Part shown: positions 4,595 through 64,000 of the stretch, one piece after another
Layout: each line of letters starts with the position of its first letter
How positions within the stretch are numbered: position 1 is the stretch's first letter
NCBI GenBank assembly: GCA_038049695.1
Contig: CP142453.1
Location: 34,700,501 to 34,764,500 of the forward strand
Length of the DNA: 64,000 bases
From: Cinnamomum chago
Lineage: Eukaryota; Streptophyta; Magnoliopsida; Laurales; Lauraceae
Reading direction: 5' to 3'
Made by a program: the position numbers and the translations under genes
Notes under the pieces: model-generated
Told to the model about the DNA's origin: nothing
What the model saw: only the letters and a program-made list of their open reading frames with translations
Database searches by the model: none

Positions 4595-4674
4595 GATGAA
4601 CTGTTGGGAATCAGATTCGTCCTCAGATGTAAGGGGATCATCGATCCAACAACTTTCTTCGTTTTTCGGGGTTA

Positions 4675-17847: not shown

Positions 17848-17965
17848 CTGTTTGCCATGAGCGGCCTTCCTGGCCTCTGACCGAGCTTGGACACTTCTCC
17901 CATTTGGAGCGGGGGCCAGGTGGATGACGTTGATGATACCTGCCGGTTCGTCGCTATCCTAATCA

Positions 17966-18170
17966 TCATTGGGCGCGACGTGCTGTTGAGCTCGGTTGAC
18001 CCTCTCTTCCTTCTTGACGTACTCGCGGAGGTGCCCATCCTTGACGAGCCTCTCGAGGTGGGATTTCAAAGCCAAGCAGTCCTCGGTCATGTGCCCATGC
18101 TGCTTGTGATAGGAACAGTTCTTGCTTCGGTCTCAGGTGGACGGATCGCCCTTCATTGGCTGCGGCCACT
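17966..18170 (-). pseudogene. Zinc cluster end of gag, Retand-like element
   Basis: The minus strand reads through a C-x-H ... GHMTEDCLALKSHLERL-like cluster, followed by a lysine/glutamate-rich segment. Retand-type gags have such a CxxH/C zinc site after the capsid domain. Fossil. Confidence 0.55.
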
Positions 18171-18453
18171 GGAAGTAGGGTTCTGCCTTGATTTTGTTCA
18201 GGAGTCTGTAAATGGGCTCCTTGAAGACGACATTGACGGCCCTATAGGGATCCCCTGCCGACTTGGCAGGTTTGAACCTCGGTTTCTTGCTGCTACCCGA
18301 GACAGAGGTTGAGAAGGTTGCCGAACTGGAGGCTGTCCTCTTTTTGTCCGGCTTTTGTCTGGAGAACGCTCCTTCCCCTTTGGAAACTTGATTCTTCTGC
18401 GGGAGCCCGAACCGTTCCTTGCCATGAGCCTCGTCCTCTTCCTGCTCAATGTA

Positions 18454-19867: not shown

Positions 19868-19900
19868 GGCTTTTGTAAAGGCTTTGGCAAAGATCGTTTT

Positions 19901-19916
19901 CCCACAGACGGCGCCA
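19901..19916 (-). promoter_or_regulatory. Primer binding site
   Basis: The minus strand reads TGGCGCCGTCTGTGGG, two bases inside the LTR edge. Its first nine bases match the 3' end of plant tRNA-Asp, and this variant is familiar from Retand-type elements. Confidence 0.75.
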
Positions 19917-19918
19917 AC

Positions 19919-20573
19919 TGTAAGTGCCTAAAAATTACGGACTTGGTTAATAGAGGGTTAAGCTCTTGGTTTGATGATCTTGGGAAGATGAGGGAAGAGG
20001 ATCGGGCCTCTGATAACCTGAAAGAGGAAGACAAAAGTCAGAGCCCTTGGCTATAGGCCGCCGAAGGCACTCCGATGCTCAAGTCAGTGTGAGAACTGAG
20101 AGAAATGGAGAATGAGAAGTCTGGGAAGGAGATCTGTTGCATACCTCATGTGGTTCTCCTTCATGCAATATATAGACGTGAGAGTCATCATCGGACTATC
20201 CCCAGAAAGAGACCGCAATCCTATCAGTATGTACTCTTCTCTCCTAAGTGGGGGTAGGTAAAAAGGGAACGTCCCATCAGACCATCATCCCATGCCGATG
20301 GACGTGACCTTGAGATAAGGGTTGCCTCTTATCTAGGTCCGGCGCCCACTCTGTTTGTCAGTTCGCCGTCCCGGTCACGGCAGCGCATTTATGGCTGAGT
20401 GACAAGAGGCCGAGATCAGGCTTATGACCGAGACCGAGGTGGATACTTGTGAACGCGGCCACCGAGACGGGACCCGTGCTCCCCCGAGATGGTGTTATTG
20501 CCGATCTGGGATGACATCGAGACTAAGGATAGCCCGAAATCGAGGAGTGGCCCCACATAAGCCCGTGATTACA
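19919..20573 (-). repeat. 5' LTR of the Retand-like element, 655 bp
   Basis: The minus strand runs from TGTAATCACGGGC (at 20573) to GGCACTTACA (at 19919), giving TGTAA...TTACA ends next to the primer binding site. A minus-strand TATA box lies at 20168-20174. No second copy exists in the window. Confidence 0.75.
20168..20174 (-). promoter_or_regulatory. LTR TATA box
   Basis: The minus strand reads TCTATATATTGCATGA inside the LTR, about 250 bp before its 3' edge, in the orientation of gag. Confidence 0.55.
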
Positions 20574-37689: not shown

Positions 37690-39010
37690 CGATCGCCAGG
37701 CTGTCGGATGTGAATTTTGATCCCCCAGGGGAGGGGAATCGCCATTCATCTATATGTGCTATTTAAATTTTTACATCGAAAATGAGGATTCCGACTATCC
37801 TCAAAATCGACGGATCACGATCGCCAGCTACGGTAACGGCCGTAACACCGTTCTTTGACAAAAGCCAAAGAAAAATGGGAGAAAATAAAAGGATGGGTTC
37901 TTCTCTCGTCTAATGTGCTGCCGGCAACACACGACGGTTTTCCTGTCACATAATTTGGGTCTCCTTGGGTCTCTTTGATATTAGGTCAATTCAGGGTTAT
38001 GAGTAAAAGTCCAAATAAGGTTAATCCTCACATAGCATAATCATAGTATATCCAAGTGAAATGAAATAACTAAAATAAAGAAAAATAAAAAGGGGGGAGG
38101 TGCCAAATATTTAAGAAGAGGATCGGCCCCGTTCCCGGGTACCCCCTTCTAATCCCTTGGAAAAATAAGGTTTAAAGGCTGACTTTTTCAAACCAAAATG
38201 ATGATGCAAATGAGACTTTGACTTGTGATTTCTGTGTTTTTCGTGTGCGATACACGAGTGATAAAGTGAAAAGCCGATGGGCTATAATTGACTGAAGGTG
38301 GCCGATGGGCCGGTGTTTGTTTGAGGGGGCCGATGGACCAGTATTTGTTTGAGGGTGGCCGATAGGCCAAAATAAAAATATGCAAAGTGTGTGAAATCAC
38401 TCATCTCATCTAGTTATTCTCATTTATTCAATTTTAGAAGTCAGTTCTTTGTTCCCTTTTATCATTAAGTTCAATTAAATATTTGGCACCTGAGGTGGAA
38501 GAAGAAATAAAGGAAAAAAATCTTTTTAGGTTTATTTTGTTGGTTTTATAGTTTTTATGGATTTTTGATATTGGGGCTAGAAGGGCCTACCTAGGGAATT
38601 TTACTTGGATTTACGTGATTAATGCTTTATTACTGATCATCGGATTAACCCTAACCTAAGGTCCTAGACCGCCCACATCAGCTCTCCCGGTCCCTTAACG
38701 GAACATGAAAAGTGATGGGACGAAGCCTAATGCTCTAATCTTTCTAATGGAGGAATCTAATATAATCCTAGGGTGCAAGTAGCCTAAGCTTGATAACCCT
38801 GCCTAAAGAATTTGGTTATGATCTTAAATAATTCGGTTTGTTTTAAGTTATGAGTTGATTAAGAGTGATTTAGGGATGTTTTAAGGTTCTGCTTAATATG
38901 TTTTTAAATATATTAAGATTCTGTTTTAGTTGTTTAAGGTTATGGAGTTTCAAGTGTTGTCCCAAATGATGGACATATGTCAGAATCGGTGAACAGGGTT
39001 GGCGGAGGAC

Positions 39011-41011
39011 TTGGGCGTCCAGGGGGTGGCGCCTAGATCACTCTGGTGACTTGGGCGCCCAGGCAGTGGCGCCCAAATGGCTGTTTCTTGGTGGTTTGAC
39101 TAGTGGCAGTGGTATTGTTGTTATCTCCGGAATCCCAGGGATCCTCACTTGTTGAATTCTAATGTTCCAAATTGCTTTAATTCTCTGGTGTTCAAATATC
39201 AAAATTATTCGGATCCGGATTTTGAAACAAAACCAAGAATTCGCGTTTTAGTGCAAATGAAAGGATAGGCGCCAAGGGGGTGGCGCCTAGGTGATGGCTT
39301 GTGATCTTCAGGTATCCCAGATGGGACTAAGTCTTCGATTTTTTGGGATCTAGGGATTATGTTGGGTTCTGGTTTTAGTTAATTTCAGTTATAAGGTGTT
39401 TAGTTACTTGTTTTTGGTCGAGGTAATAGGTCGGGGCGAAGGTGTAGGATAGGCGCCACAGGGGTGGTGCCTAGGTGGTTGTTTGTTGGTTCGTAAGAGT
39501 TTTGGGTGCTAAGTCTGAATCGATTAAAGTCTTAAGTATTTTAAGTCAAAAGTGTTTTAATATGTGGACTGGGATTGGTTTGAACGTTAATTAATTAGGC
39601 TGAGTTGTTGGTCGGGGTTTTTATGAAAACAGGTAGGCTGGGCGCCCAGGGTGTGGCGCCCAGGTGGAAATGGAGGATGGGCGCCCAGGGGGTGGCGCCC
39701 AAGTGGACTGTTCTGTGGTTGAGTCAGTTTCGTATTTTTTAGGTTGATTTGAAGTCCGAATTGGTTAAGGTTTGAGGTCTGCTGATATTAAAGTGTTTTA
39801 ATGTTAATTGGGGTTACTTTAAATATTAATTAGGTTAGATTGTTAGGTGGGGTTTTAATGAAAACAGGTAGGATGGGCGCCCAGGGTGTGGTGCCCAGGT
39901 GGAAATGGAAGATGGGCGCCCAGGGGGTGGCGCCCAAGTGGACTGTTCTGTGATTCGGGTCGGTTTCGTATTTTTTAGGTTGATTTGAGGTTGAACTTTT
40001 ATGGTTTGATGTATCTTAAAATAAAAGTGTTTTGCTGTGTCGTTAGGATTAAATTAAGTTCTAATTAATTAGGTCTTTTTGTGACTCGGGAGGTTAGGCG
40101 ACCAGAGGGTGGTGCCTAGGTGGATAGTCTTTTAAGTTTTGAGTTGGTTCAATGATCTTTAAGTTAATTTGAAGTCGGACTTCTGACTTCAATTGTTTTA
40201 AATTCTGAAGTGTTGATTATGATTGAATTCGGGATTAGTTTCAAATGGGGTTTCCAAATGACTGGGTAGGATAGGCGCCCAGAGGGTGGCGCCCAGGTGG
40301 ACTGTTTTTATGGTTCGAATCGGTTTTATGTTTTTTATTTGAATTCAAGATCAAATTGATTGAGGTTTCAAATCTTTTTAAATTGACAGTGCTTTAATGT
40401 ATTGATTCGGGTCTAATTAGTTAAGTTTTAATTTCAATTGATGGTCTCGAGGGGAATGGGGTAGGATAGGCGCCACAGGGGTGGTGCCTAAGTGGATTGA
40501 TAGGCTGGGCGCCCAGGGGGTGGCACCCAGGTGTCTGGTTCTTGGTTTTGTGCTGGTCTTGTACTCTTAAGTTGTTATGAGTTCGAATTGATTAGGGTTT
40601 CAGGTTTCTTAAGTTTAAAAGTGTTTTATTATGTAAATTAGGATTAAGTTTGGGTTGTTATTAATTAGAAGTTGTAACTGAGGGTTCCTTAGTGATGCGA
40701 TAGGATGGGCGCCAAGAGGGTGGTGCCCAGGTGTCTCGGAAGGATGGGAGCCCAGGGGGTGGCGCCCAGGTGGTCTGTTTTGGGTTTTGGTTGGTTTGTG
40801 TTTTCGAGTTAATTAGAGGTTGAGTTGATTAGGGTTTTGGTTATTTCAGGTTTAAAATGTTTTACTGTGTTGATTCGGACTAGTTTAAGGTCTTAATTGA
40901 CTGGTTTAAGCTTTAATCGGGATGTCTTAGATAATGAAGAGGTTGGGCGCCCAGGGGGTGGTGCCCAAGTGACTGTGGAAGGATGGGCGCCCAGGGGGTG
41001 GTGCCCAAGTG
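39011..41011. repeat. Palindrome array 1 (copies 1-16), in a tandem repeat of about 180-240 bp
   Basis: A 30-bp motif made of TGGGCGCCCA, a G-rich centre, then TGGCGCCCA and AGGTGG or AAGTGG occurs at about 39011, 39051, 39264, 39450, 39638, 39677, 39873, 39912, 40094, 40271, 40466, 40504, 40704, 40743, 40943 and 40983, often as pairs 39-40 bp apart. The longer unit around it (with blocks like TTTAATTGATTAGG and AAAGTGTTTTAATGT) repeats about every 180-240 bp. Confidence 0.9.
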
Positions 41012-41464
41012 ACTGTGTTTTGGGTTTTAGGTGTTTTATGTTCTTAGTTCCTTTTAACCCAAATTAATTAGGCCTTTAAAGGTGTTCTTAATGATTTGAT
41101 GGTTCTGGACTTAATTGTGATGTTCTAATTAATCCTAGGGTTTATCCTACTTAGGAACTAAATTCGATAACCTAAACTATCTAACTATTATTTTTGGGTT
41201 TTCTGGATATCTTTTAACTTGTTTTTGGTTTCTTCTCTGATTTACTAAAGAGTAAGGAAAGAGAAGAAATGATTTTACGTTTTATGATTTTTTTTGGGTT
41301 TTTTTATATGATCCTACGATTCAAATGATATGATGTGAAGTGTGACAAAGATGGCAATTCAAAATTCAGAACACATCAAACAGCCAAACGTACCACTACC
41401 AAACAGTTTCTAAGTAAACTAAATGCGGAAGATCGGAAGTTGTGCATGAAAGTGGAAAAATCCA

Positions 41465-41746
41465 CTTGGGCGCCCAGGGGGTGGCGCCTATCCTGCTCAG
41501 TCAGGGTTTTTAATGGATTACGACGAACGCGCAAAAACCTTAGTATTTTCAACACAACTTTCGATACTCAGCGACTGATGTGGATTCCTAATGCGAACTA
41601 CTGATGATGCAACTAGCAAATCTACGAGAAAGCGATGCAACGGGCGAAAGGTTAGAACCGAATCCAGTCTCAGAATGGTAGGCGCCCAGGGGGTGGCGCC
41701 CAGCCTGTCCGGGAGAGGGCAGGCGCCCAGGGGGTGGCGCCCAGCC
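41465..41746. repeat. Palindrome array 2 (copies 17-19)
   Basis: Three copies of the same motif at about 41465, 41676 and 41718, each containing GGCGCCCAGGGGGTGGCGCC, separated by unrelated AT-rich sequence. Confidence 0.9.
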
Positions 41747-42241
41747 TTTCTGCCAAGGATTTTTCGCGATCTTTATGATATGAATGATAACAATGATACT
41801 ATTAATGCGAGATCTAACCTAGTTATGCAATTAGAATTACGAAATTAATGCAGATCTACTATATTATGATGGACCTAAACATGTTTCTAGTATGATGAGA
41901 TGCTAATATTAGTTTTAACACAAGCTAATGCAGATCTATGATGCTCAAATGATCCTAAACATATTTCTAAGCATTTATGTCAATGGAATGCAGTAAAAGA
42001 AAGGGAAGATCTAGGAATACCGGTATATGACGCGTTTCTCAAGTTCCTAGAATGAAGCTTTCGCGGAGTCCCATAGCCCCAGTTGAAGATATGGAAGCCT
42101 TCTTCTCTACCTCTTATTCTTCTTCTATAGATCTGAAACTCTTTCTCTAATGGTGGCTACCTCTTCTTCTACTTCCTTATTCTCTATTTTCACTCTTTTG
42201 TTTTTAGGGTAGCTCCCCTTGCTAATGGGGGTTAAGAGGGA

Positions 42242-42248
42242 TTATATA
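42242..42248 (-). promoter_or_regulatory. LTR TATA box
   Basis: The minus strand reads CCTCTATATAATCCCTC. It lies in the LTR in the orientation of gag-pol, with palindrome array 3 ending 115-420 bp upstream. Confidence 0.6.
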
Positions 42249-42364
42249 GAGGCTTTGGGACGAGTTTAGGAGGGCTAGGGCTTCATTAATTCGTGCTTCT
42301 AGAAGGTCTCACGCATCCCAAGGCGGCTTAAGTTGTTTTAGGGTGAATTAGGGTTTGAGAGAGG

Positions 42365-42666
42365 GTGGGCGCCCATGGGGTGGCGCCCACATGGTCTGCG
42401 CAGCCTGGGCGCCCACAGGGTGGCGCCTAGGTGGAACTTAGGGCTGGGCGCCACATGGGTGGCGCCTAAGTGGAGTCGGTTCATCTTCGGTGCATGGTCC
42501 CTATGTTTGCGTGGTCCCGGGCTACTTTCAAGCCATTCTAGTGGAGTTTGGAAAGTGGGCACCCACCATGAGATGCCTAGGTGACCCTGGGCAGTATGGG
42601 CGCCCAGCATGGGGCGCCTATGTGGAATTCAGTAGCCTGGGCGCCACATGAGTGGCGCCTAAGTGA
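42365..42666. repeat. Palindrome array 3 (copies 20-25), promoter-proximal
   Basis: Six copies at about 42365, 42404, 42443, 42556, 42597 and 42637, spaced 39-40 bp except one gap. They sit 115-420 bp upstream of the LTR TATA box as read on the minus strand, the usual place for transcription-factor sites. Confidence 0.9.
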
Positions 42667-43183
42667 CTTTGACATCCTCCTGGGGCAAACTTCAGAAGCC
42701 CATAACTTTTGACCCGCTTATCGGATTTGGACGCTCCATATATCGTCGGAAAGCTCTCGGAATGTAGAATCTTGTGGTGTATAGCTCCTAATATTCAGAG
42801 GTCAGGGAAAGTAAGGGATACTCGGATCAATGATCCCAACCTCCTAATTCATGTTAATCATATCGTACTTAGGCAAACTATATGTAGTTTCTTTAGGAAC
42901 AACCTGGTTGTGTTCTATATAGTTTGGAAAGGGTTTGGAATAGTGTTGTAGTCCATGCCTGGTATGAGTAGTGGGTCGAACTCGAGATCTCAACGCGATT
43001 CGGCCTTTTCTCTCACAATTTCTATGAATTGTCGAACTAAGTCTAAAATTTTCAATAAGCATCTTCATCGTCATTAATTAATCTAAATTATGCCAGTAAC
43101 CATTCAATTTTGGGTGAAATGGGGGCATCATTATATATGATAAGTGTTTAAGGCTATCATAGGGGCCAAAATGAGGTGTCTAC

Positions 43184-44034
43184 AGTCCTGTGTACTCGGT
43201 CGACCCGGAGCAGGGCTCGGTAGACCGCGCACAATGGACTGTAAGTTCTGCAGGAAATTTAACTAAGACCTGGGTTTTCTCAGTTTTATTGTGCTCGGTC
43301 GACCTGGCTGCAAGTCGGTCGACCGGGCACACGCAAACTGCAGAAAACCCAGATTTTAGGGTTTATTCTCCTTCAACCCATTTTTCTACCAAAACTCCTC
43401 CAATCTCGCCTAAACATCATCAAATCAACATAAAACATAAAAACACTTCAATGTACTACCATCCAACACCAAAAGGGCCATTGATCTTCCAAATGGGTAA
43501 TTCTCATCCATCAAAACTAAGCTCAAGGGTAGATCTATCACATGTATAATAACTGAATTGAAATTGCAGAATCAAGGAAATAGAGACATATATTCTATGT
43601 TAAATACATATATTGCACTTGCCTTGTTTGAAATGGAAGGTTGTAGAGAGAGAGAAAGAAGAGAGCCAATCCAACAAGAAGAAAATCCCAGCTCTTTGGG
43701 TCTTCTCAAGCACTAAACCAACTCAGAACTTAGGTCTAGAAGAGAGAAAGGAGAGGGGAAATGAAGAAGATGAATAGTAGCTAGGGATGGCCTGGGAAAT
43801 GTGCTGTATTTATAGATTGGGGGTTTGGGCTGAGGACTGAAATGCCCTTCTAGTTTGTATAGGATTAGGGGTTAGGGTAGAGGGCATTTAGGTCTTTGGG
43901 GGAAGGTTCTAGAAGAGTCTTTCATGGATACCCCCTTATGGAAAATACTAATATCTAGCTAGGTCCTCCACTCACAACTAACCCTAGTTCTAAAGGTGAT
44001 GTTCACTTTTCTAGGATCAATCCTGATTCAGGGG
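43184..44034 (-). mobile_element. Partial Tekay-like LTR fragment next to the giant LTR
   Basis: Directly after the LTR start at 43183 the sequence changes to a segment with GGTCGACC palindromes (43192-43345), a pyrimidine-rich leader-like part and a minus-strand TATA box (TATAAAT at 43808-43814). The layout (palindrome pair, AACCCAGATTTTAGGG-type leader, GAGAGAGAAAGAAGAG tract) resembles the Tekay-like LTR at 12403-13807. It has no coding sequence. Whether it is flanking DNA or part of the giant element decides how the LTR at 37702-43183 is read. Confidence 0.4.
43192..43345. repeat. GGTCGACC palindrome set
   Basis: CTCGGTCGACCCGG, CTCGGTAGACCGCG, CTCGGTCGACCTGG and GTCGGTCGACCGGGC occur within 150 bp, three of them with a perfect GGTCGACC core. 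Confidence 0.9.
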
Positions 44035-45661: not shown

Positions 45662-46453
45662 ATGGCTGGTTTCCCCGTCTTTTCATTCACCATCGGCGTT
45701 GGGGCAGCTCTCGATGCTTGCAAGCCTTATGTGCCAGGGGAGGAATACTGGTCCCCTGGAACTGAGATGATAGGTTACCACGACTCCGAGAATCGAGCGG
45801 AATTCTACCCCGGGCATGAGTCGTCCATTCCCGCTATTTATGACTGTGTGTTTGAATTTGAAAAAATAATGGATCAACGTCTTGCTGAAGTCAAACGCGA
45901 GGCGTATGATCTGTTAGTTACGAAATACAAACGAATTTGCGGGCTGTATGGGGACTTGTGCGTCGTTGGGAGGACTGCCCTTGGTAGGTTGCGAGGTTAT
46001 ACTGGGCTCATGGAGGACTTACCGGGTTTCGTCAGCGAGGTGCTTCAGTCCCTCTTATGGAGCTTGATAGACCTCAGAGCAATGCTGGGGGTTTGGGAAG
46101 CTACCAAAACTGCAAGTGAAAGGGCTCCAATCGATGACTTCAATACCCTGCAAAGGCGGATGGATCAGCTGGAGCACATGACCATGTCTTGCCCCCATGA
46201 GGCTGAAGCGTGCATTCCCAGGCGTTATAGGAAATATTTCGAGATGCAGAACACTACACTTTCAGCGCTCATTCACCCAGTATATACCGCCCTTCAGGAC
46301 GACTCTGGACAGATCCGAGAGATTTGTGATGCCCTTCGTAATCCCCTAAATAATCTCAATGAAATACAAGGGCAGCTCGAGGCTCACATCGCAAGGATGG
46401 AGACGCAGATGGCTCGTTTCCCAGTCTTCAACGACATGATTCACCCATTCTAA
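45662..46453 (+). CDS. Unidentified 263-aa protein, extra plus-strand ORF of the giant element
   Basis: I do not recognise this protein. The frame is open upstream to 45596, but that part is translated palindrome repeat, so I take the ATG at 45662 (MAGFPVFSFTIGVG). The sequence is a mixed, mostly helical-looking globular protein with a long charged/hydrophobic stretch (residues about 60-90 and 150-170) and a C-terminal helix ending ARFPVFNDMIHPF. No signal peptide, membrane segment or zinc cluster is visible. It has codon-like composition and no internal stop, so it is probably a real gene. A possible poly(A) signal AATAAA lies at 46649. It lies upstream of, and in the same orientation as, the PMD gene, and opposite to gag-pol. 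The GGCGCC palindrome array immediately upstream suggests control shared with the LTR. Confidence 0.6.
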   Translation: MAGFPVFSFTIGVGAALDACKPYVPGEEYWSPGTEMIGYHDSENRAEFYPGHESSIPAIYDCVFEFEKIMDQRLAEVKREAYDLLVTKYKRICGLYGDLCVVGRTALGRLRGYTGLMEDLPGFVSEVLQSLLWSLIDLRAMLGVWEATKTASERAPIDDFNTLQRRMDQLEHMTMSCPHEAEACIPRRYRKYFEMQNTTLSALIHPVYTALQDDSGQIREICDALRNPLNNLNEIQGQLEAHIARMETQMARFPVFNDMIHPF

Positions 46454-46945: not shown

Positions 46946-48886
46946 TATATATATATATATTTTTTTTTGAAGAGATACAGGGTTGTGCTTAAGGTGTGTC
47001 CCCCATAGAGATGGACCCCACCATATGATGGGGCTGGGCCATCCAGCGCCCAGCCTTGTGCGCTGCTTTAGGTTACGGGGTTGCCCCCTTTTCCCTCTTT
47101 CTTTTGTTTTCATTTCATTCTCTATTTCCCTCTCTTTCTTATCTTTCGTTCTTTACTTTCTTCTTTCTCTTTTGGGCGTGAGTTCAGGTGGAGACAGAGG
47201 AGCTGGGAGTGGAGTGGATAGAGGAGAGGTGCGAGGGAGGTGCAGCGCAGGCTTGCTGGCGCTCAGGTAGGTGGACCGTCCCTTCCCTCTTTCTGTTCTT
47301 TCTTCCCTCATTTTTTTTTTTAATTTAGTTATTTATTTATTTTGGACCTGCTGTCATGGTTGTAGGTAAAGAACGATTGAGGAAGGGGAAGGAAAACAGG
47401 TATGTGCTCCATTCTTTTCTTTATTTCTATTTCATTCTCTTTCTCTGTTTTTTTTTTTTTTTTTTTTTTTTATTGAATCAGCTGTTGTTATTCGTAGGTG
47501 AAAGACGACTGGAGGAGAAGAAAACAGAGAGGAGAGGCAAGAGGAAGGAAAGGGAGGAGACAGAGGACCAGGTAGGTTGCTCCATTCATCTCTATTTCTA
47601 TTTCCATTCCCTTGCTCTCTTTTATTTTTTTATTTTTATTTCACTTCTCTTTTCTGGTTTTTTTTTTTTTTTCTTGTTCATCTTTCCCTCTTCCCTTTTG
47701 TTTTGAATCTGTTGTTGCTTGTAGGTGAAGGAAGAGTGGGAATAGCACTGAAAGAGAAGCCGTGTGGGTTCAACAACGTCCAGGTGTGTGTGGGTCCCGC
47801 CCCTTCCATCTATTCATTCTTTCTATTTTTTTTTTTTTTTTGGTTGCAGAATGGGGTTTTGGGGCTCGGTTTTGGCCAAGGGCAGCCATGGGCGTGGTTG
47901 ATTTTGGTGAGGGAAGAAGTGGGGAGTTGCCTCAGCTGTGAGGTTGGCAATTGCACCCCCCCCTGATTCAGATTTGAAGAAAGATTGCAGAACGGGGAGT
48001 CCTATGATAAAATCAGTTTGGGTGGAGAGTGTAAATGGCTGTGAGTAGTTGGAGTTGATGGAATGATGAGGAGTGGGATTTGGCGTGATTCATGGAGGTT
48101 AATGACCATAATGGAGGTGGTTCAGTTTATTGAACAATTTCATTAGCCTTGGAAGAGAATGTGGCAAATATGATTTTGGATTCTTAGCACGGATCTTAAC
48201 CATTGAAGGATTGGGCATTTTTTTTTTTTTTTATTCAGGGATTTGTCTAGGTTTGTGGAGCATTTGTTTTGTTTTGTTCCTGATAATACCGTGATGTCTT
48301 TTATGCTCGCTTTCATAGTTGTGAATAAGTTGCAAATCTCCTGCTCTCTCTTTTGTTTTTTGTTATTTTTTATTTATTTTATTTTATTCTATTTCTTATT
48401 ATGATATCTGGTAGCTTAGTGTGCTTTACTTTCTGTTAATCCATTCTTGTTTCATTTACGTTCTGTGAGCCATGTTCTTGTGTTGCTCTCTTTTGTTTTC
48501 GTTCTTTCTCCCCCCCCCCCCCCCCTTTTTTATTATCATTATTATTATTATTATTATTTTAAAGTGTTGTTGTGGGATGGAGTGTGATTTGGCCCAATGT
48601 GTGTAGTGATAACATGATGAAGCAATTATGGGGTGAGAAGTTAGAGTTGAATAGGAGGGCTGGGTTGGATTGAATGTGATTCGTTTTGTTTTAATGCTCA
48701 GGTTGGGTCCATGGCCATGATCTTTGGCGTCCCCTCTTTTTATCACTTAATTAATGAAGTTCACCACCTCTAAATCAGAAACATTAGTAACCATCTTGGA
48801 CTGATCTGTTTTTTTTTTTTTTTTTTTTTTTACATGGATTGATGTTATGTTTTCATGTTCAATCTTTCATTTTGGCATTAAGTACA
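46946..48886 (+). promoter_or_regulatory. Promoter and leader region of the PMD gene, with repeated mini-exon-like blocks
   Basis: An (AT)n tract (46946-46961) could act as a TATA region. From about 47250 to 47790 there are three or four blocks of the form T-rich tract, TTGTAG or TTCGTAG, GTGAAAGA...-like purine-rich piece of 30-80 bp, then CAG|GTAGGT or CAG|GTATGTG. They look like small leader exons bounded by acceptor and donor sites, and are imperfect copies of each other (periods about 125 and 220 bp). Further on there are a 16-base C tract (48510-48525) and a (TTA)n run (48533-48559). Confidence 0.4.
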
Positions 48887-48901
48887 GGTTTACAGACGGT
48901 C

Positions 48902-51900
48902 ATGACTGGAAGGGCTACTAAGCGTGCCTCTCCGCCGGCGGATGTTCTGGAAGGGGTCGGGGTAGATCCAGTCACTATTCCCTCGAGAAAGAAGCACAAG
49001 GAGGGAGATAAAGTGGAGAAGAAGCCTCATCTTGGAGATGAAATAAGAGCTGGCCGGGTAAAACTCGGTTGTCTTTATAAATCTCATACTTTGTTGGCTT
49101 CCGTTATCACTGATATTCTTTCCTCTGATGTTTATGTTGTAGCCTGTCCCCTTTGCTCGGGCTAGGGTCAGCTGGTTACAGATGAGGGACTGGTGGGCTG
49201 AGCTCCCTGATCGCTTAAAAGACCGGGTGCGAGCGATGGGGTTAGGTGAATTTATGTCTATCGTTGCTTTCCGCACCGACCGCGCCCTCATTTGCGCTCT
49301 CTCTGAGAGATGGAGAGATGAGACGCACACTTTTCATTTCCCGCCCGGGGAAATGACGATCACATTGGAGGATATCGCGCGATGTTGGGGTTTGAGGGTG
49401 ACGGGCCTCCCTGTTTTCTCAAGAGCGAATGACGCCAAGGCCTCCATCACTCGATTACGCCTGCATAGGATGTTTGGGGCACGCCCCCAATCCGGTGTGG
49501 GGCAGATTGATGCAGAGTGGCTGAGGGAGGCGTATAGCCCAGAGAGGAAGAGGATCTTAAATAGTGAGTATTCTATTATTGCCTTTGTGGCCTTGTATCC
49601 TTCAGCTTCCATTATTTTTACTAATCGTTTCTCCTTGCTTCATCTCAGAGTGGGCTAGGAATCAGGCGGACTTCTTCGCTAAGCTGAGGGCAAGGATACC
49701 GGATCTGGAAGGTTTGCCGGTCAGAGGACGTGAGGGAGGCTTAGTCCCTACAGCGGCCGGGGTTCGGGCTGATGCCGGTAACACTTTGTTTCTTTTCCCT
49801 TAAATTGATTTTAAATCCAAAATACCCATGAGACTTGCGCCTTACTCTTCATCGACATCATTCAAAATTTCTTTGGTAGGTGAGGGCCCCTCCTCTGGAC
49901 GACCTCGAGCTGCAGGCAGCCCCGTCGATGATGACGTAGCAGTGGTGGATGCCATTGAGAGTGATGAGGAGACGAGCGGGAGTGATGACGATGCAGTTGA
50001 GTCCGAGGATTCAGACTTCGATGAGTTGGAAGGTGATCTCATCGTGTCCGATGATGGAGATGACGAGATCGATGACGGGGATAGTGAGGATGAGGGGGTG
50101 AGGCCCCGCCGGGTCGTTTCTGTTTGCATTGATGAGGGGGGTGATGGAGATGATGAGGGCGATGACGCTGGACCCTCTGAGGGTAAGCACTCGATCTAAC
50201 TTCCTTAACCGATCTCTAGTGTCTTGTATATTTCTCATCCTTGTTTCTCATGCTCTTTTTTTTTTTTTTTTTTTTTTTTTCGTTGTTTCAGGATATGAAT
50301 GGCGGGAGGTGCCCATTGACGGGTATACTCGCCGGAAGAGGGTAGGGATACCCTGCGAGACTTTCCAAGTCACGAGTGAGCACCGAAACATTTGGTAACT
50401 ACTTTGTTCTCCATTCTGATTGTCAAATGAATTTCTTAGGTCAATTTGTATTGTGTAGAGAAAGAACAGGGGAGGCAAGCTGAGGTTCGTTTGAGGAGAC
50501 CTAGGTTGAGTTCGGCACGGTTAGGTGATGAAGAGCATCTTAGGGCTTTTCTTCTATTCTTTCTGGGGAGGTGTCTCTTTGCCAATGCGACTGGCAATAG
50601 AGCATCCGGCACCCTCATCCGGTTCGTGCAGGACTTGGATAAGGTTGGTAACTACGCTTGGGGGGCAGCCACCCTTGCATTTCTTTTCCATAGTCTGGAT
50701 TCGAGGTGCCGCGTTCAGCCTGGATGCAAGAGCCTTCGAGGGTTCGTGCCGTTCTTACAGGTTAAGCTTTTATTTCGAATGTTGTGACCTTAAGTAGTTT
50801 CCTTTTCTAATCATGTTGCATGCCTCATCTTTTGTAATAACGAAGCTTTGATTTTGAGCAGGTGTGGGTATGGGAGCATATAATTCAGTGTCGGCCTGAG
50901 CGCTTGCCAGCGAGGTTGAGTTGCACTCCCCGGGCTTCGCAGTGGTATCCTAATGCGAGTTTGCGAGGCTTTGCCGACATTCTACCCCTTGAGATGGCTG
51001 AGCGTATTAAAGCTCTTGGGATGAGGCCGGGTGAGCAAGGTTATCGGTTCATCTTGAATGAACTGAAAAACCATGAGGTATGTTTCTTTCTTTCCTTTTG
51101 TTTTCTATGTTGAACGTCTGCTTCTCTTTGTTCTCATCAATTACCTATACCATGGTTTATCAGGTGATTTGGCAGCCCTACCAGGGTGGTCCGGATGACG
51201 AAATGACTGTTGTCCAGGAGGGTCGTGCTTTATTTGAGAGGGACATTTGGCTCCACGCTCCTCAGGTAGCAGTCAGATTGATCGTTAGCCGAGTCGCGCG
51301 CCAATTGGGACGCCATCAATCTATCCCCGCAGAAAGGTTCGTCATGCATCGATCGTACCCGGGGTGGGGTCTAAAAACGTTCAGGCGCCGCCATCCTTGC
51401 CTAAAAGAGATAAAAAACTGGAGAAAGAAAGGTAGGAAGGCTACCTTTGACGCGGATGCTAGCGCCTGGAGCTATTATGAGGCATATTGGAAGATGACCT
51501 CACACCGGTATATACTCCTGGAGTCATATTCTTGTGGGGCCTCATATTCTATTAGTAATTGTGCAGAAGCAGCCGAGGCGTCATCATTGATCCGGGTGAG
51601 CATTGAAGTTTTATTTGCTTTAATGTTGTCTCCTTTCATCGTGACTCACATTGTTTTTCTTCCTTTATTTCTCAGGAGGGGATACCGGCTGTAGCGGGGT
51701 ATTGGCAAGCACGTCCATCATCCGAGGGACGGGGTGAGGTGAGTCTTTTTTTTTTTTTTTTTATATGAAGTCACTAGTTTCGCTTATGAGCTTCATGATC
51801 TCGGAGATACATGTTCTTCTCATCCCCTAACTATAATTCTCGTGTGTAACAGGGGACATCCGGGGGTGCAGCGCCCGATGCAGAATCCATTCTCAGGGTA

Positions 51901-52989
51901 GAGATACTTCGACTGTCTCACTTAGTGGAGAACAAGGTATGACTTCTTGACTTAGTGTTCGGACCAAATGGTGTTCACCTCCATAGCAATGCTAATCATT
52001 TCTGGTGTAATGGCATGGTTCATGCTCTCATAGGATGCAGCGGTCACGCGATTGAGGGCCTCATTGTCGGTCGAGAGGGTACGAAAATTATCAAACTTAA
52101 TTGGCCGCATGCGACTTTGTTTGTATCTCCTTTACTAACAGTGCTGTGGTAATAGGAGCGCCGCCGGGAAAATGAAGCGGTCATCGAAGCATTGGCGGAT
52201 TCGCATGAGGTATGGGGTCACGAGGTTGATTGTCCATCTTGAATTCATGTCCATGATCTTTGGTCACTGTGCAGGGTGGTAGGGATCATGACACATCTGA
52301 GGCCATGAGGATAGCATTGGAGGGTAGGCTTCAGACACTACAAGCTGAGGTGGATCGATTGCAGGTTGGTGAGGTTTATGCTTTTACTGCATTCCTCTTT
52401 CGTATAACAACTGATTCCTAACTGTTCGCCTTTGTGATCTTTAGGAGGAGGCTCGTAGTGAGCGTGATAGAGCGCTCGCGGAGAGAGTTGCCTTAACGGC
52501 ACAGGTATGGGTCCTACTTATGTGATACTCCAATCTCGATTTTTCATTCGTTGCTGATGTAGTTTATGATCTTGGGGTTTGCAGGTTAACGAGCTACGTG
52601 CCAAACTCGTGAGCTATGAGGCCTCTACGCAAGTGAGGGCCTTTTCTTCCTTTTAAATCCCCCATTTGTTGTTACAAGGTTTATTGAATGTAATGTTTCC
52701 TTAAAATGTCGTCTTGCAGAGTGGTGCTATCGTTGCTTCCGTTCCTCCGCGTCTCAGCCTGGGGGAGGAGAGGGCTCTTATCCAGGATCAGTACAACGAG
52801 CGCATGGATCGCATGGCTCGATGTCATGAGGAGGTGGTTGCTGATTTGCGAAGGCGCCTCGATCGATATCGCCAGAGGGCGGAAGAGAGAGGTTATGCGT
52901 TTTCGGACTCGACACGAGCTCCTTCTCAGCGTGTTCCTGGTCTGTCTTCATTTGCTTCGTCGGCTCGTCATAATGGAGCTGCTTCATAG
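48902..52989 (+). CDS. Plant mobile domain (PMD) protein, 15 predicted exons, 903 aa, antisense to gag-pol
   Basis: Predicted exons: 48902-49057, 49143-49563, 49649-49777, 49880-50182, 50292-50375, 50459-50760, 50862-51077, 51164-51595, 51676-51738, 51853-51936, 52156-52209, 52275-52364, 52445-52504, 52585-52632, 52720-52989. All 14 introns are GT-AG and the joined frame stays open to TAG. Residues 1-52 are basic (RKKHK, possible nuclear signal). The PMD fold runs from about 60 to 540, with FPPGEMTITLEDIARCWGL (about 125), YAWGAATLAFLFHSL (about 430) and VWVWEHI (466). It is split by an acidic D/E-rich insert (about 245-335). Residues 703-903 are charged and coiled-coil-like. PMD proteins (MAIN/MAIL1 relatives) act in plant transposon silencing and genome stability, and PMD readings are also carried by plant transposons. 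Start chosen as the first in-frame ATG after an acceptor. Exons 1 and 9-14 are the least certain. Function here is not known. Confidence 0.75.
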
Positions 52990-55227: not shown

Positions 55228-58200
55228 TCAAACTGTGTACCTTTTCAGGTACATAGCATTCCATGGATCGGGGAGCTCTTCCCCTTCTGCATTTACTAGT
55301 CTGTATGCATTTTTAGAATATACTTCTTTAATTACATAAGGGCCTTCCCAATTGGGCCGTAACTTACCTCTGGGATGCGGAAGCTGGGATGGAGTGATGC
55401 GCTTTAGCACGAAATCACCGACTTTGAATCTTCGCTCTTTGACATGCTTGTTATAGGCTCTAGCAATCCGCTTCCGATACACTTGTGCATGCTCTGCTGC
55501 CTTCATTCTTTTCTCATCGAGTAGGTCTAGCTGAAGTAGTAGTGCTTCTCTCCTCTGGTCTTCTGTTATATCTTCATTTAGCTGGACACGCAGTGACGGG
55601 TGAAGGACCTCGAGTGGAAGGACTGCTTCCGTTCCGTAAGTTAAAGAGTATGGGGTTTCTCCTGTAGGAGTTCTTATAGAAGTCCGATACGCCCACAACG
55701 CTTCAACTAAACGGTCTGGCCAATCACTACCTTTGGCGGTTTGCACAGTCTTCTTGATGATCTTCAGTAAGGTCTTGTTGGTTGCTTCGGCTTGACCATT
55801 GGCTTGGGGATAATATGGGGTTGAATGATGCAGTTCTATATCATATTTTGTGCACAACTCATTCATTTGTTGAGATATAAATTGGGGGCCATTGTCTGTT
55901 ATGAATACCTTAGGGATGCCAAACCTGGCTATTATATTCTTTTTGATGAATTTAACTACAGAGGTTGCCTTAATATTGACATATGCCTCTGCTTCTGCCC
56001 ATTTAGTGTAATATTCTATAGCTGTTAATATGAATGCCTTATTTTGTGTGTTTTCTAGTGTAGGGGCCAGGGGTCCTATGATATCAAAGGCCCATGTCGA
56101 AAAAGGCCATGGAGCTGTGGTAGGGTGAAGGGATGATGCGGGGGCATGTATTAGGTCGGCATGCAGCTGACATTCTTTGCATCTCCTAACATAATGGACT
56201 GAATCCATCTCTAGGGATGGCCAATAATAACCTAAACGGATAATCTTCTTAGCCAACATTTGGCCGTTGACATGTCCTCCACACTCTCCTGAGTGTGCTT
56301 CTTCAATTATCTCCTGCCCTTCTTCTGTGGTCACACATCGTAGGAGAATTCCACTGAATGATCTACGGTACAATAGTCCCGCGACTATGACATATCTCTG
56401 AACCATTTCTTTCAATGCTTTTTTGTCCGATCGGGTGGCGTATTCAGGGATGTAGCCATCGTGTAAGTAATTCCAGATATCATAGTACCATGGGTGATCA
56501 TCTACCAAGTCATCGTCATGTTGTATGCGGGCTAGGATTCCTTCGGGTTTGGTGTTCTCCTTGTGATCAGACTCTTTGGCCTTGGCTTTCTTACCCTTTC
56601 CTTTGGAAACTGTCGGCAGAACTTCGGCAGGGTTCCCTTTGGTCAGGTCTATTGGTTTGACGGACGGAGAATCTAGCCTTTTAATCAGGAATTCTTCGGA
56701 ATCCTTATCATTGGGCATCTCTATGATTGAGGCTAAAATTGCTAACGAGTCAGCCAATCGGTTCAAGGCGCGAGGGATGTAGAGGAAGGAAATCTTCTTG
56801 AAATCGGACATTAATTCTTTTGCTTTTGCATGGTAATGTGCAAGCTTTGGGGCGCTGACCTTCCATTCTCCGGCTATTTGGGAAATAACAACCTTGGAGT
56901 CACCGAAGACTCTTAATTTCTCGATGCCTAGGGTTTGGGCCTCTCTCAGTCCTGCTAGTAAAGCTTCGTATTCCATCACGTTGTTGGTCGCTGGAAACCC
57001 AATTTTGTAGGCCTTCGGTATGGCAACTCCTTCCGGGGATAATAATACTACCCCGACTCCTTTCCCATTTTGGTTCAAAGCCCCATCAAAATACATGGTC
57101 CATAAATCATCATTCTTAACCTCCTCAATGTCTGTAAATAAAATGTCCTCATCAGGGAACTCGGTTTCGACTGGCTCGTACCGTGGCAAAGGGAGGTGTG
57201 CCAGATGGTCGGCGATTGCTTGTCCCTTTATAGACTTCTGGGTAACATAGGTTATGTCAAATTCTGCCAAGAGCATTTGCCATCGCGCGACTCTTCCCGA
57301 AGTAACGGGTTTCTCGAAAATGTACTTCAAAGGGTCCATCCTAGCTAAGAGTTTGACTTGGTGGGCTAGGAAGTAGTGTCTCAATTTCTGAGCAGCCCAA
57401 ACAACTGCTAAGCAGGTTCTCTCCATCGGGGAGTATTTCCTTTCATAGGGTAGCAAGGATTTGCTCAGGTAATAAATAGCATTCTCCTTTCGGCCGGTCT
57501 CATCATGCTGACCCAGGACCACACCTATCGCAGATTCTGTCGTTGACACGTATAAAATGAGAGGCTCATCTTTAGTAGGGGGCTTCAGAACGGGAGGACT
57601 CAATAGATATTTCTTCAAATCTTCGAATGCCTTCTGGCAGTCGTCATCCCAGTGGTACCCCACACCTCCTTTTAGCAATTTGTAGAACGGTTCACATCTT
57701 TGCGAATGCTGCGAAATGAATCTTCTAATGAACTGTAGTCGTCCTATGAGGCCCCTCAATTCTTTTAGGTTCTTCGAGGGCGGCATTTCAAGAATGGCCT
57801 TTACCTTAGAAGGATCAACTTCAATTCCTCGGTTGCTCACCATAAAGCCCAGGAGTTTGCCAGAGGATACTCCAAAAACGCATTTCTTCGGATTCATCTT
57901 TAGTTGGGTGTCCCTAGATCGTTGAAGGACTCTCCTGAGGGCCATGACATGGGTGTCACGGGTTTTGGATTTGATTAAAATGTCGTCCACGTAGACCTCC
58001 ACACAATCGTGTATCATATCATGAAATATTGCCATCATGGCCCTTTGATAAGTGGCGCCGGCATTCTTCAAGCCGAAGGGCATAACAACATAACAGTAAG
58101 TCCCCCAGGGTGTAGTGAACGAGGTTTTCTCCTGATCTTCTGGTGATAACCTAATTTGGTTGTGCCCCGAATAACCATCCATAAATGACAGCATAGCGTG

Positions 58201-61200
58201 CCCTGCGGTATTGTCAATAAGCATGTCGATGTGAGGCAAGGGGAAATCGTCCTTGGGAGATGCCTTGTTCAAATTCCGAAAATCAATACAGACTCGGACG
58301 CGTCCGTCTTTCTTCTTTACCGGGACTATATTGGCGACCCATTGAGGAAACAACACAACCCTGATGAACTTAGCCTGGTGGAGTTTGTCAACCTCCTCCT
58401 TCACTTTCAGTGCAACATCGGGGAGCATTCTTCTCAGCTTCTGTTTGACGGGTCTAGCATTTTCCTCTAATGGGATCCTGTGTTCTACCAGGTCGGATGC
58501 AAGTCCGGGCATGTCGTTATAATCTGATGCGAACACGTCTTGGTATTCTCTTAGGGCTTCAAGGATCTCAATCTCTTCGTTAGGTTCCAGGCATGCACTA
58601 ATTTGGACTTGTTTGGGTCTCTCTTCCGTCCCCAGGTTTATCTCTTTTGTCTTTTCAGCAGCTGCTTGGGTTTCCTCATCAAACTTTTTGATTACTCTCC
58701 TAAATTCCTCAGAGACTTCATCATCCCCTTCTTCGGCGTCCACTAGTTCATAAACACCCATTCCATCATTAATGTTTGCATGTTCTGTGGAAGGCTCAGG
58801 CTCTAAAACGACAGGTAGAGATTCGCAGCCTAACTTATTGATATTGGTCATAATTTCCTCTAGTCGAGACTGTGCTACCGGTGGTATCTTCCATCGTCTT
58901 AGGTTGCCCACATTCTGATGATGACTAAAGTCTTCTACTCCTACGGTTCCTATGTTTTTGGGTTTTCTATTTTCTATTTTTTTTGGGTTTTTGGGGTTTT
59001 CTATTTTTTTGGGATTTTTGGAATGATATGGTACAGATGGGATCGAGGATGGATTATCTACCGAGGAGGATCCTCCCCGCTGGCGTAGCCAGGCGGTGGG
59101 GCGGTATACCACTTCGTGATCATTGAGGTCATCGGTTTCCCAGATTTTGCGGTTTTCTTGAGAGGGGTCTTCTCGCCAGTGGCGCCAGGCAGCCGGCCAA
59201 TATACCACTTCTTCGCTAGTAGGGTCTTCGATTTCCCACGTTTCGCGACTTTCCGGGATTTTGGCAATCGGCGTTTTTTTTTTTTTGGGTAAATGAGTTG
59301 ACTCGCTCACACTTAGCATGTTACATGATAAGGTATGGGATCTCAGGTCAATGGTGTGGTCTATATTGTTCACTTCCTTTAGCGGATGGAGCTCTCTCCA
59401 AGTGCCGAAGATTTCCTCGTAAGTCTCGCTTTCGGAAGATGTCGAATCTCCCCAATCCTCTACTAAAACGAACTTACCTTTATCATTTGGGTCTAAATTG
59501 TAGCATCCCTCCCTGGTCGGTGGTGTATTGGGATCTAGGGCCTTGTTGGACTTCACAAAATATTCGTTTAAGGTCCAGTCCTCCCATTTATACCTTATGT
59601 CATTGTGTGTGTCGTACCCTAACCCTTCTGCTCTCGCTCTGGGATCTGGTATGTAAGGGTCAATAATTCCTTCTCCGTCCCTTCCTAGTCCAAATCCGGG
59701 TTGATACCCCATCTTTTTCATCAGGGTCCATCCTCGATCTTGACCTTCGTTGTCCGCTGCAGGATCCTGCAGGCAGGATAGATCAGAGAACATATGTTGC
59801 ATCAAGTCTGTATCCATCAAGGAGATGAGAGGGTCGACCCTGTATCCATGAATTTTGACTTCTGGCGTAATAGGAGCGGGTTGTAGGGTTGGGAGTATCT
59901 GAAGTTCTTCCGGTTCAATGACAGGCGGGTCCCCCATTAGTTTCATGATCTTGCCTAAGTAGGGGAATTTGACGCATTGATGCCTGCTCGACATGACAGC
60001 ATTCATATGATTCAACCATCGGCGTCCCAAGATTAAGTTAAAAGTGGCGGGGATATCCATAATATAAAATTCTTCCGGCATTGAGAGCGGGCCTGCTTGC
60101 ACTAATAACATAATTTTTCCACAAACTGTTTTCTTATTCCCGTCATAGCCGGTCACAACCATAGGGGCTGGAGTTAGGTCTTTTACTGTGAGTCCTAAAG
60201 CTTTGTAGGTTTTCAACGGATAAATATTCAGTGATGCGCCAGTGTCAACCAAAGCTCCTGACATTTCCTTCCCTGCTATCTTGACTGTCAGATGTAAAGG
60301 AGATGTCCTCGCCTCAGGCGGTATCTCCTTTAATTCTTCCTCAGTAAAAGTGATGGCAGGGAATGAAGCTCCCGGGGCCAAGGCCGCGATAGATGTCCTC
60401 AATTCCTCTGGAGTTATGCCTACCGGGACTTGTAAGCGCGTAATAGCCTCGAGTAGTTGTTGCTGATGCTTGGGGGATGTCTTAATTAAATCAAGGACGG
60501 ACACCTTAGCTGGGATCTTAGTGAGGTGTCCTAAGAGGTCATACTCTATCCCCGTTTCTATCGAAGTATAAGCTCTTTCATCAACAGACTCCTCAACTTG
60601 ATCATTGGGATTTTGCGAATCTAAGTTTTGAGTAACTGGATGAGGAGGTAGCCGGGGAGGACGGATCCGTCCAGATCGTAGGTGGGCCTGAGGTGCATTT
60701 GTATCTGGGTGAGGATCTGGCTGTGAGTTCGTGATGATGGGTGATTCTCGATCGTCTGGCTCATCAAAATTTACCTTGTAAAGGTCAGGGGAGTCAACGA
60801 TCGCCTCCATCCCCGAGTTAAAGATTTTGAATTTGGTCTTCCCATCCCATGGCGTAATGTATTTTCGATAATCCTCCTCTTCAAAGAAATCATCATGACA
60901 TGGTTGGCTATGGTGTATACTCCCCTGAGCTGGGGCATCAATGTGCCTGTGCTCTATTACGGCGATGTTTATTAGTTGGGCATGTGGGCCCTGTCCAGAG
61001 GTTGATGCTCCATGCTGAGGTAACGGGTTCGTATAGATCTGTATGTTGGGAATATTCTGCGCTGGATTAGCGGTTGAATTTTGATTAGGAGTGGCACCTC
61101 GCAGGTCATTCCCGCCTATTGGCCTAATGTTACCCCAATCAATTCTACCTTCGTCATTGAGGTCATAGATCAAATCTCTAACCGTGTAGCATTGGGTGAG

Positions 61201-63636: not shown

Positions 63637-63850
63637 GCGTTATGTAATTTTGTTGGTGAAGGTTTGTTTCTTATGATGTAATGGGGGAAAGCTTAGTGGA
63701 CGGTCCATTGGAACCTCAGGTTTAATTTAGGACTAGACTCATAATAACCCTAAACTGATTGGGACACGGACATCTGATCATTGATTGGATGTTCGTGTCT
63801 TAGAATAACATTCCAGGAAAACCCAAATAAGTGACAGGAAAACAAAAGAG
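63637..63850 (-). other. Short leader between primer binding site and gag
   Basis: About 215-270 bp without an ORF. It is much shorter than the 1.9-kb repeat-filled leader of the Ogre-like element at the left. Confidence 0.6.
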
Positions 63851-63868
63851 GTCCCATCACGATCGCCA
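63851..63868 (-). promoter_or_regulatory. Primer binding site, tRNA-Arg type
   Basis: The minus strand reads TGGCGATCGTGATGGGAC starting three bases inside the LTR edge. It would pair with a tRNA 3' end ...ATCACGATCGCCA, which fits a tRNA-Arg. tRNA-Arg priming is reported for Ogre elements. The exact isoacceptor is my inference. Confidence 0.6.
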
Positions 63869-63871
63869 GGC

Positions 63872-64000
63872 TGTCGGATGTGAATTTTGATCCCCCAGGG
63901 GAGGGGAATCGCCATTCATCTATATGTGCTATTTAAATTTTTACATCGAAAATGAGGATTCCGACTATCCTCAAAATCGACGGATCACGATCGCCAGCTA
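63872..64000 (-). repeat. Start of the 5' LTR of the giant element (continues beyond the window)
   Basis: The 129 visible bases are identical to 37702-37830. They include an internal GGATCACGATCGCCAG that resembles the primer-binding-site region. About 5.35 kb of this LTR should lie to the right. Confidence 0.85.

Follow-up and report, generated by a model that had tools for sequence, protein, structure and literature searches.

An open, many-exon PMD gene antisense to gag-pol in a Tat-lineage LTR retrotransposon of Cinnamomum chago

The window analysed here, a stretch of 64,000 nt from Cinnamomum chago (GCA_038049695.1, CP142453.1, 34,700,501-34,764,500, forward strand), contains a Tat-lineage Ty3/gypsy element of about 31.7 kb with an intact gag-pol, and between pol and the 3' LTR this element hosts, in antisense orientation, an open PMD gene of many exons. 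This observation is not due to chance, since most exons of the gene are open only in the frame used, its introns recur in other copies of the element and its splice sites have changed less than the sequence around them. Judging from variation among copies, the gene looks like a selected, spliced gene rather than passenger DNA. Outside the coding part of the PMD gene, the element is composed as follows (window coordinates):

37702-43188, minus strand: 3' LTR, about 5.49 kb (repeat comparison)
43189-43987, minus strand: repeat of about 800 bp, occupying a site of 126 bp in copy L054
45662-46453, plus strand: single-exon second antisense gene of 263 aa, beside the PMD gene
47267-48901, plus strand: probable 5' leader of short non-coding exons (alignment with nine other upstream regions)
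47267, 47400, 47572 and 47784, plus strand: leader donors
47366, 47498, 47725, 47850 and 48888, plus strand: leader acceptors (first base past the junction)
55228-63582, minus strand: gag-pol
63850-63868, minus strand: probable primer binding site, beginning with TGG 3 nt past the LTR (sequence position)
63872-64000, minus strand: 3' end of the 5' LTR, which runs beyond the window to about window-equivalent 69359

The gag-pol, called uninterrupted in an earlier note on this DNA, indeed reads as one open minus-strand frame from 63582 to 55228, in which a profile search recognised gag, protease, G-patch, RT, RNase H, a second RNase H and integrase. The second RNase H (aRH; RVT_3, residues 81-197 of the final pol piece), which marks the Tat lineage, is placed after RT-RNase H and before integrase, in accordance with the rule given for angiosperm Tat elements (Ogre/Retand) that aRH sits between RH and INT (PMC6317226). 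However, in classical Ogre elements an intron splits gag-prot from pol, whereas here both lie in one frame. Thus, the label "Ogre-like" is appropriate for the order of pol domains but not for the Ogre intron. The element was also described as young, and the 6303-bp repeated block spanning the LTRs, with 11 mismatches, speaks for this, with the caveat that the element ends are irregular in the window copy. The repeat of about 800 bp next to the 3' LTR also flanks the 5' LTR on the outside, while the 126 bp found at its site in L054 include a purine-rich tract adjoining the LTR.

The coding part of the PMD gene is best modelled with 16 exons:

48902-52989, plus strand: PMD gene, coding part, antisense to gag-pol
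48902-49057, 49143-49563, 49649-49777 and 49880-50182, plus strand: exons 1-4
50292-50375, 50459-50760, 50862-51077 and 51164-51595, plus strand: exons 5-8
51676-51738, 51853-51936, 52034-52078 and 52156-52209, plus strand: exons 9-12
52275-52364, 52445-52504, 52585-52632 and 52720-52989, plus strand: exons 13-16
49143-49563, plus strand: exon 2, opening portion of the PMD at profile positions 4-104 (PF10536 alignment)
49649-50375, plus strand: exons 3-5, a 172-aa insert between profile positions 104 and 105
50459-51595, plus strand: exons 6-8, remainder of the PMD (PF10536 alignment)
51676-52989, plus strand: exons 9-16, charged tail (composition)

Joined, these exons form an open frame of 2757 nt that encodes 918 aa; each of the 15 introns has GT...AG ends, and in 11 of the 16 exons open reading is restricted to the frame used. 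The earlier note had proposed a product of 903 aa from 15 exons with 14 introns; its open frame and GT...AG introns were right, and its exon count is one below that of the better model. The 903-aa model probably omitted exon 11 (45 nt), because the gap of 15 aa equals the size of that exon. Since the frame stays open without exon 11, forms with and without it are both possible; at introns 10 and 11, no loss of splice dinucleotides was seen in any of the 16 other copies. The predicted splice sites of the leader for the most part align between copies, with exceptions, among the nine other upstream regions. The first leader exon would begin upstream of 47267.

Against Pfam, the spliced protein matches PF10536 with an E-value of 9.5e-53 and 180 bits (cut-off 34.9). 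Together with the presence of the gene in other copies, this match upholds the proposal of a PMD gene lying antisense inside the element. Taken singly, exons 2 and 6 score above the cut-off and exon 8 below it (17.5 bits), while exon 7 alone gives no match to PF10536. The insert encoded by exons 3-5 is partly very acidic (25 D/E within aa 241-300); the lengths of these exons are multiples of 3, and the flanking introns are in phase 1. The tail is possibly a coiled coil, to judge from its composition together with the low similarity (E 0.022) of aa 739-780 to a designed filament, the sole hit in a PDB search at E up to 1, in which no PMD relative was found. For the second antisense gene nothing in Pfam exceeded the cut-off, and PF04195 (Transposase_28) was absent, at E up to 0.1, from both this gene and the spliced PMD protein.

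Several other PMD loci of the genome were compared with the element protein. In the host-like locus L001 the PMD is continuous, lacks the acidic insert and lies within a single frame of 597 aa, whereas that of the element protein is split by the three-exon insertion. Only two local stretches align with L001 (27% and 46%); matches to L002 are likewise short and local (27-46% for the two loci), and none was found for L003 at E 1e-3. A recent capture of a host gene is therefore disfavoured, since matches to host-like loci are at most short and local and the gene is common to many element copies. A more distant PMD family, the L004-type loci, has intron 7 (51078-51163) in common with the element gene in position and phase, although identity is only 22-37% over local stretches and no insert is present at that site of the PMD. 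At the one locus inspected of the 27 in this family, no pol match was found within 10 kb on one side and 8 kb on the other, and a MULE/FAR1 transposase frame lies within 8 kb, which argues against residence of this locus on a Gypsy element. PMDs on MULEs are already in print (PMC5418596); in or beside such elements the domain has a DNA transposon context, unlike the LTR retrotransposon described here. The same paper states the order of origin of Gypsy and genic PMDs as open.

The earlier note called an intact, many-exon copy striking; as a kind, such a gene is less unusual than this suggests. PMD has reportedly been linked with Gypsy elements by Steinbauerova et al. 2011. According to Neumann et al. 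2019 (PMC6317226), 57% of Ogre elements carry it; these, like the Gypsy PMD-A clade described by Ikeda et al. 2017 (PMC5418596), are also of the Tat lineage, with pfam10536 in an extra frame. The Ogre survey set a minimum of 250 codons for extra frames, and the part of it considered here does not mention a many-exon gene. Antisense ORFs occur in all recent Retand clusters (Vicient 2025, PMC11963269), and these elements, like Grande with its gene23 (PMC7264820), likewise have an antisense gene between pol and the 3' LTR in a long internal region. However, the usual domain of the Retand gene is Transposase_28 instead of PMD (PMC11963269), and the word "intron" has no occurrence in that article. 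What appears to be new is the many-exon, spliced antisense PMD gene, which we did not find in the article text searched; PMD on Ogre and antisense ORFs on Retand were already known.

Introns are normally lost when retrotransposons are copied through RNA. At least 17 full-length copies with the PMD gene, counting that of the window (at least 16 others), were found. In the family searches, 40 of 250 and 40 of 130 candidates were scored. The introns are kept in all 16 other full-length copies, one of which (L033) has a deletion across the intron-1 acceptor. Presence of the gene in other copies, on which the earlier note had made its reading depend, is thus established. The spliced exon 7-8 junction, the one junction searched for, had no match in the genome, compared with 35 matches for the exon 7-intron 7 boundary, at up to 3 mismatches in both cases; the junction pattern was longer (50 letters against 37) and therefore less sensitive for diverged copies. 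We thus see no sign at this junction of a retrocopy of spliced mRNA. Such evidence fits the earlier proposal that antisense orientation explains intron survival. Read in gag-pol sense, as in the transposing RNA, the introns would not be recognised as such and would therefore persist; we add that the spliced mRNA of the gene, having neither LTR nor primer site, would be unable to replace the unspliced copy. Of elements whose LTR ends are almost identical to those here, two with LTR pairs 16.5-17.5 kb apart were sampled. Within the 10 kb searched in each, only the integrase end of gag-pol was found and no PMD gene; these were set aside as PMD carriers and count against a selected accessory gene.

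Overall, we suggest that the gene serves its Tat-lineage LTR retrotransposon as an accessory gene, encoding a putative nuclear protein with a possible role in a silencing pathway, an explanation that, taken whole, we regard as having about an even chance of being correct. The gene would be transcribed from its own upstream promoter through the spliced leader, and its product, with a basic N-terminus, PMD, acidic insert and charged tail, may be nuclear. There it would most likely act on the chromatin or transcription of the element. MAIN and MAIL1, which likewise bear the PMD, are required for TE silencing in Arabidopsis (PMC5418596, PMC7156037); the host comparison made here is with the host-like loci L001, L002 and L003. 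It is tempting to suppose, as a hypothesis on the role against host silencing, that the element protein mimics or competes with host PMD proteins of the MAIN/MAIL1-PP7L pathway. The most specific version, namely that the lineage keeps a many-exon gene with working introns by antisense placement, extended its PMD by exon insertion and blunts host silencing with a MAIN/MAIL1 relative, seems to us rather doubtful as a whole.

Antisense proteins serve as accessory regulators in some retroviruses. The protein might similarly regulate the cycle of the element itself (nuclear import, control of transcription, packaging), independently of host silencing factors with a PMD. Accessory ORFs in antisense are the rule in Retand (PMC11963269), the maize Grande antisense protein is nuclear (PMC7264820), and the acidic insert is peculiar to the element protein relative to L001. 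However, such a function leaves the retention of a PMD unexplained, and we consider it possible but not likely.

In a further reading, a host or transposon PMD gene was inserted long ago and is now functionless cargo. Breakage in 14 of the 16 other copies would suit mere cargo (only two are free of stops and frameshifts, one of them without the intron-1 acceptor), as would equal divergence from the window copy in exons overall (6.2%) and intron interiors (6.3%). Three exon indels of frameshift length are common to at least two copies, and multiples of three are no commoner among shared exon indels than among those in introns (one in frame and three not, against four and six; p 1.0), so that frame preservation by indel length is not supported. 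However, two-allele exon variants tell otherwise when singletons (N 312, S 130; stop involved in 28 of 442) are set against variants shared between copies (N 156, S 147; stop involved in 2 of 303). By Fisher's test, shared variants have a lower N/S (p 1.4e-7; 1.6e-4 without CG/CHG transitions) and relatively fewer stops (p 3.5e-5), while normalised N/S is 0.88 for transitions and 1.43 for transversions among singletons, against 0.46 and 0.80 among shared variants. The dN/dS of 0.18-0.41 among three stop-free copies is biased low because these were picked for being intact. Splice dinucleotides diverge by 1.1%, compared with 6.3% in intron interiors; donor GT is kept in 237 of 240 cases, whereas GT elsewhere in the introns is kept in 1164 of 1370 (p 5e-12), and acceptor AG in 231 of 239 against 383 of 431 for other AG (p 4e-4). 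Both splice-site conservation and purifying selection are therefore seen, the latter in shared versus singleton variants though not in indel lengths, and functionless cargo is improbable. Regulation by the antisense RNA itself, for instance as dsRNA with the sense RNA, the protein being of little importance, has been proposed for antisense ORFs (PMC7264820) and would accord with phased siRNAs from tea PMD genes (PMC10673657), but amino-acid-level constraint among shared variants and conserved splice sites make it very improbable.

Returning to a selected accessory gene, we note that a gene of 16 coding exons has come through transposition within a family and shows signs of selection, and thus an element copied through RNA can carry a complex gene. 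Intron 7, common to separate PMD families, provides a new character for the history of Gypsy and genic PMDs. The gene shares its domain family with host silencing factors; should the silencing role prove true, the element would possess a gene for countering silencing whose host target family is known.

Joined on the plus strand of the window (G000:C3:34700501-34764500), 16 exons give 2757 nt (918 aa) without an internal stop, and all 15 introns have GT...AG ends. The earlier note counted 15 exons and 903 aa; its open PMD gene stands, a model of 16 exons is the better one, and the difference of 15 aa is exon 11 (45 nt). Since skipping of exon 11 leaves the frame open, a 15-exon form is possible too; introns 10 and 11 have lost their splice dinucleotides in none of the 16 other copies. 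A Pfam profile search of the spliced protein returned PF10536 (PMD) at 9.5e-53 (180 bits), in line with the family first named. The gene, richer in G+C in exons than in introns (55% versus 36% in the window copy), lies antisense to gag-pol, with a second antisense gene upstream:

45662-46453, + strand: second antisense gene, open frame of 263 aa
48902-52989, + strand: PMD gene, 16 exons
63582-55228, - strand: gag-pol, single open frame with gag, protease, G-patch, RT, RNase H, second RNase H and integrase (Pfam domains)

The PMD domain is distributed over exon 2 (profile positions 4-104), exon 6 (105-180) and exon 8 (240-324, alone scoring below the cut-off). Exons 3-5, each a multiple of 3 in length and flanked by phase-1 introns, interrupt it between positions 104 and 105 and contain an acidic stretch (25 D/E in aa 241-300), unlike the host-like locus L001, where PMD is uninterrupted. 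Exons 7-15 all have lengths that are multiples of 3, with phase-0 introns. The protein begins with a basic N-terminus (14 K/R in aa 1-60) and ends in a charged tail; we infer a nuclear location and a coiled-coil tail.

The host element shows the same RH-aRH-INT order as the angiosperm Tat elements Ogre and Retand (PMC6317226). A G-patch follows the protease in the polyprotein (59434-61536, - strand, E 1.1e-8); it has already been published in plant Gypsy elements as another atypical domain. A 6303-bp block is present at both ends of the element, with 11 mismatches and one gap between them. Substitution rates of 6.5e-9 to 1.3e-8 per site and year would put the age implied by the LTR difference at roughly 0.07-0.13 million years, in agreement with the earlier description of the element as young. 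Searched against the genome, the low end of this block gave a listing of 40 matches. Of these, 25 start at query position 187 and thus include primer-site bases as well as the LTR, and 13 start at 200-203 and cover the LTR alone; one match starts at 196, and that of the window at 1. These starts place the 3' end of the LTR at ~37702, and comparison with the element copy L054 places its 5' start at ~43188. With both boundaries so placed, the LTR would measure about 5.49 kb and the whole element about 31.7 kb, longer than the 'up to about 24 kbp' given in a published survey (PMC6317226).

At the window element, the 3' LTR is followed by 16 nt of primer-site sequence, and no target duplication can be seen. 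An 800-bp repeat (43189-43987) fills the position that in L054 is taken by 126 bp including a purine-rich tract; it also adjoins the 5' LTR on its outer flank (locus L031, window-equivalent 69360-70158). The irregular ends perhaps arose from recombination or joining without integrase. Within the 3' LTR, a 60-nt GGGCGCC-rich stretch recurs in 14 imperfect copies (39243-42442). Further separate ORFs for gag and RT, at 633-7710 and 15843-20037 (both - strand), are remains of other LTR elements.

In the genome (1.06 Gb, 14 contigs), the whole 4088-bp gene as a DNA query gave at least 48 matches, at least 17 of them over the full query, including the window (40 of 250 candidates scored). The 16 others share 89-98% identity with it and measure 4040-4106 bp; as their summed intron gaps are at most 53 bp in each copy and the shortest intron is 65 bp, no intron is absent from any of them. 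Other copies of the element thus carry the gene with its introns, a point on which the earlier note had staked its reading. A 50-letter pattern of the spliced exon 7-8 junction, the single junction tried, had no match in the genome, and a 37-letter pattern of the exon 7-intron 7 boundary had 35. The retrotransposing RNA would be gag-pol sense, with the introns reversed and hence unspliced, and the spliced PMD mRNA, having neither LTR nor primer site, could not re-enter the cycle. Intron retention would therefore need no special mechanism, and the earlier account of intron survival by antisense orientation fits both the copies listed and the junction search. Three sets of matches to the PMD and second genes, at ~20.1 kb spacing (G000:C6:533395-579536), look like a tandem triplication.

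No PMD gene was seen within the 10 kb read of each of L058 (C10:27524064) and L059 (C5:60388857), two elements whose LTR ends are 97-98% identical to those of the window element. Their LTR ends are 16.5-17.5 kb apart; of gag-pol, the integrase end alone was seen, and a frame of 1323 or 1336 aa stands behind the leader, that of L058 without a Pfam match.

Two-allele exon variants in 17 aligned copies were sorted into two classes: singletons, which presumably stem for the most part from decay after insertion, and shared variants, which presumably date for the most part from the period when the elements moved; positions with more than two alleles were excluded. Amino-acid or stop changes stand to synonymous ones as 312 to 130 among singletons versus 156 to 147 among shared variants (Fisher p 1.4e-7), and as 198:67 versus 81:63 with CG and CHG transitions excluded (p 1.6e-4). 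Stop variants account for 28 of 442 singletons versus 2 of 303 shared variants (p 3.5e-5). These contrasts point to purifying selection on the protein. Per opportunity, the ratio for transitions is 0.88 in singletons versus 0.46 in shared variants, and for transversions 1.43 versus 0.80. Among the stop-free window, L034 and L035, dN/dS is 0.18-0.41, a range shifted downward because intact copies were selected.

Relative to the window as reference, 11 of 958 cells diverge at splice dinucleotides, 976 of 15543 in intron interiors and 2722 of 44074 in exons; exons and introns do not differ in overall divergence. Donor GT is retained in 237 of 240 cases versus 1164 of 1370 for other intronic GT, and acceptor AG in 231 of 239 versus 383 of 431. 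Such conservation indicates that the function of the gene would need splicing. Only L034 and L035 among the 16 other copies are free of stops and frameshifts, and L035 lacks the intron-1 acceptor, so that L034 is the sole other copy intact in frame and splice sites. Shared exon indels have no in-frame excess (1 in frame and 3 out, versus 4 and 6 in introns). One out-of-frame exon indel of 7 bp is common to L042 and L047, copies apart in the tree, and could reflect parallel slippage, alignment, recombination or mobilisation in trans.

Ten regions upstream of the gene were fetched, and nine (all except L056) were aligned with the window. At nine candidate splice sites (47267-48888), most aligned regions retain the window's GT or AG, which suggests a spliced leader and the gene's own promoter. 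Exceptions are L054, unmatched at the first sites, and L050, without the block holding 47498 and 47572; 47725 is lost in L052, 47850 in L053 and L054, and 48888 in L049, and at 47784 three regions align only with a 2-bp shift. The putative leader mini-exons at 47267-47850 (+ strand) are mutually similar, as if they had arisen by duplication, and differ by indels; from copy to copy, neither their length nor their presence is constant.

The second antisense gene has no Pfam family above the cut-off. At least 40 matches were found in the genome, that of the window plus 39 further ones at 85-99% (40 of 130 candidates scored). Within the ten upstream regions, it is full-length and open in L048, L050, L051 and L053, broken in L049 and L052 and partial in L055 and L057, with no match in the stretch read of L054 and L056. 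The open copies fall into two types that are 66-68% identical at the amino-acid level. Between the types dN/dS is 0.05-0.10 with dS saturated (YN00), pointing to strong constraint; L050 versus L053 gives 0.13-0.21, and within the window's type, where changes are very few (dS 0.006-0.012), the value is 1.4-1.7.

PMD matches in the genome number at least 133 (117 of 5124 candidates scored). All 27 fetched loci of a distant family (L004-L030) have a 90-bp GT-AG intron after a glutamate codon and before a conserved V-x-W stretch. In L004 it has the place and phase of PMD-gene intron 7, and so this intron probably predates the retrotransposon family. One locus of this group has a MULE/FAR1 transposase frame within 8 kb and no pol match within 10 kb on one flank and 8 kb on the other. 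L001-L003, at G000:C10:59768590-59801066, are three PMD loci whose domains are open and uninterrupted; they are possibly host genes.

Because Arabidopsis silences transposons with PMD proteins (PMC7156037, PMC5418596), it is tempting to suppose that the element's PMD protein may interfere with or divert the host pathway, as the earlier note had guessed. Nearly as likely, the protein would serve the element's own nuclear steps. PMD has been published as the commonest atypical Gypsy domain and is present in 57% of Ogre elements (PMC6317226), a Gypsy-only PMD-A clade has been published (PMC5418596), and antisense coding regions occur in all recent Retand clusters (PMC11963269). In the literature consulted, we found no description of a many-exon antisense gene. 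PMD on Ogre/Gypsy elements and antisense frames in Retand are thus already in print, and what appears new here is the many-exon antisense form.
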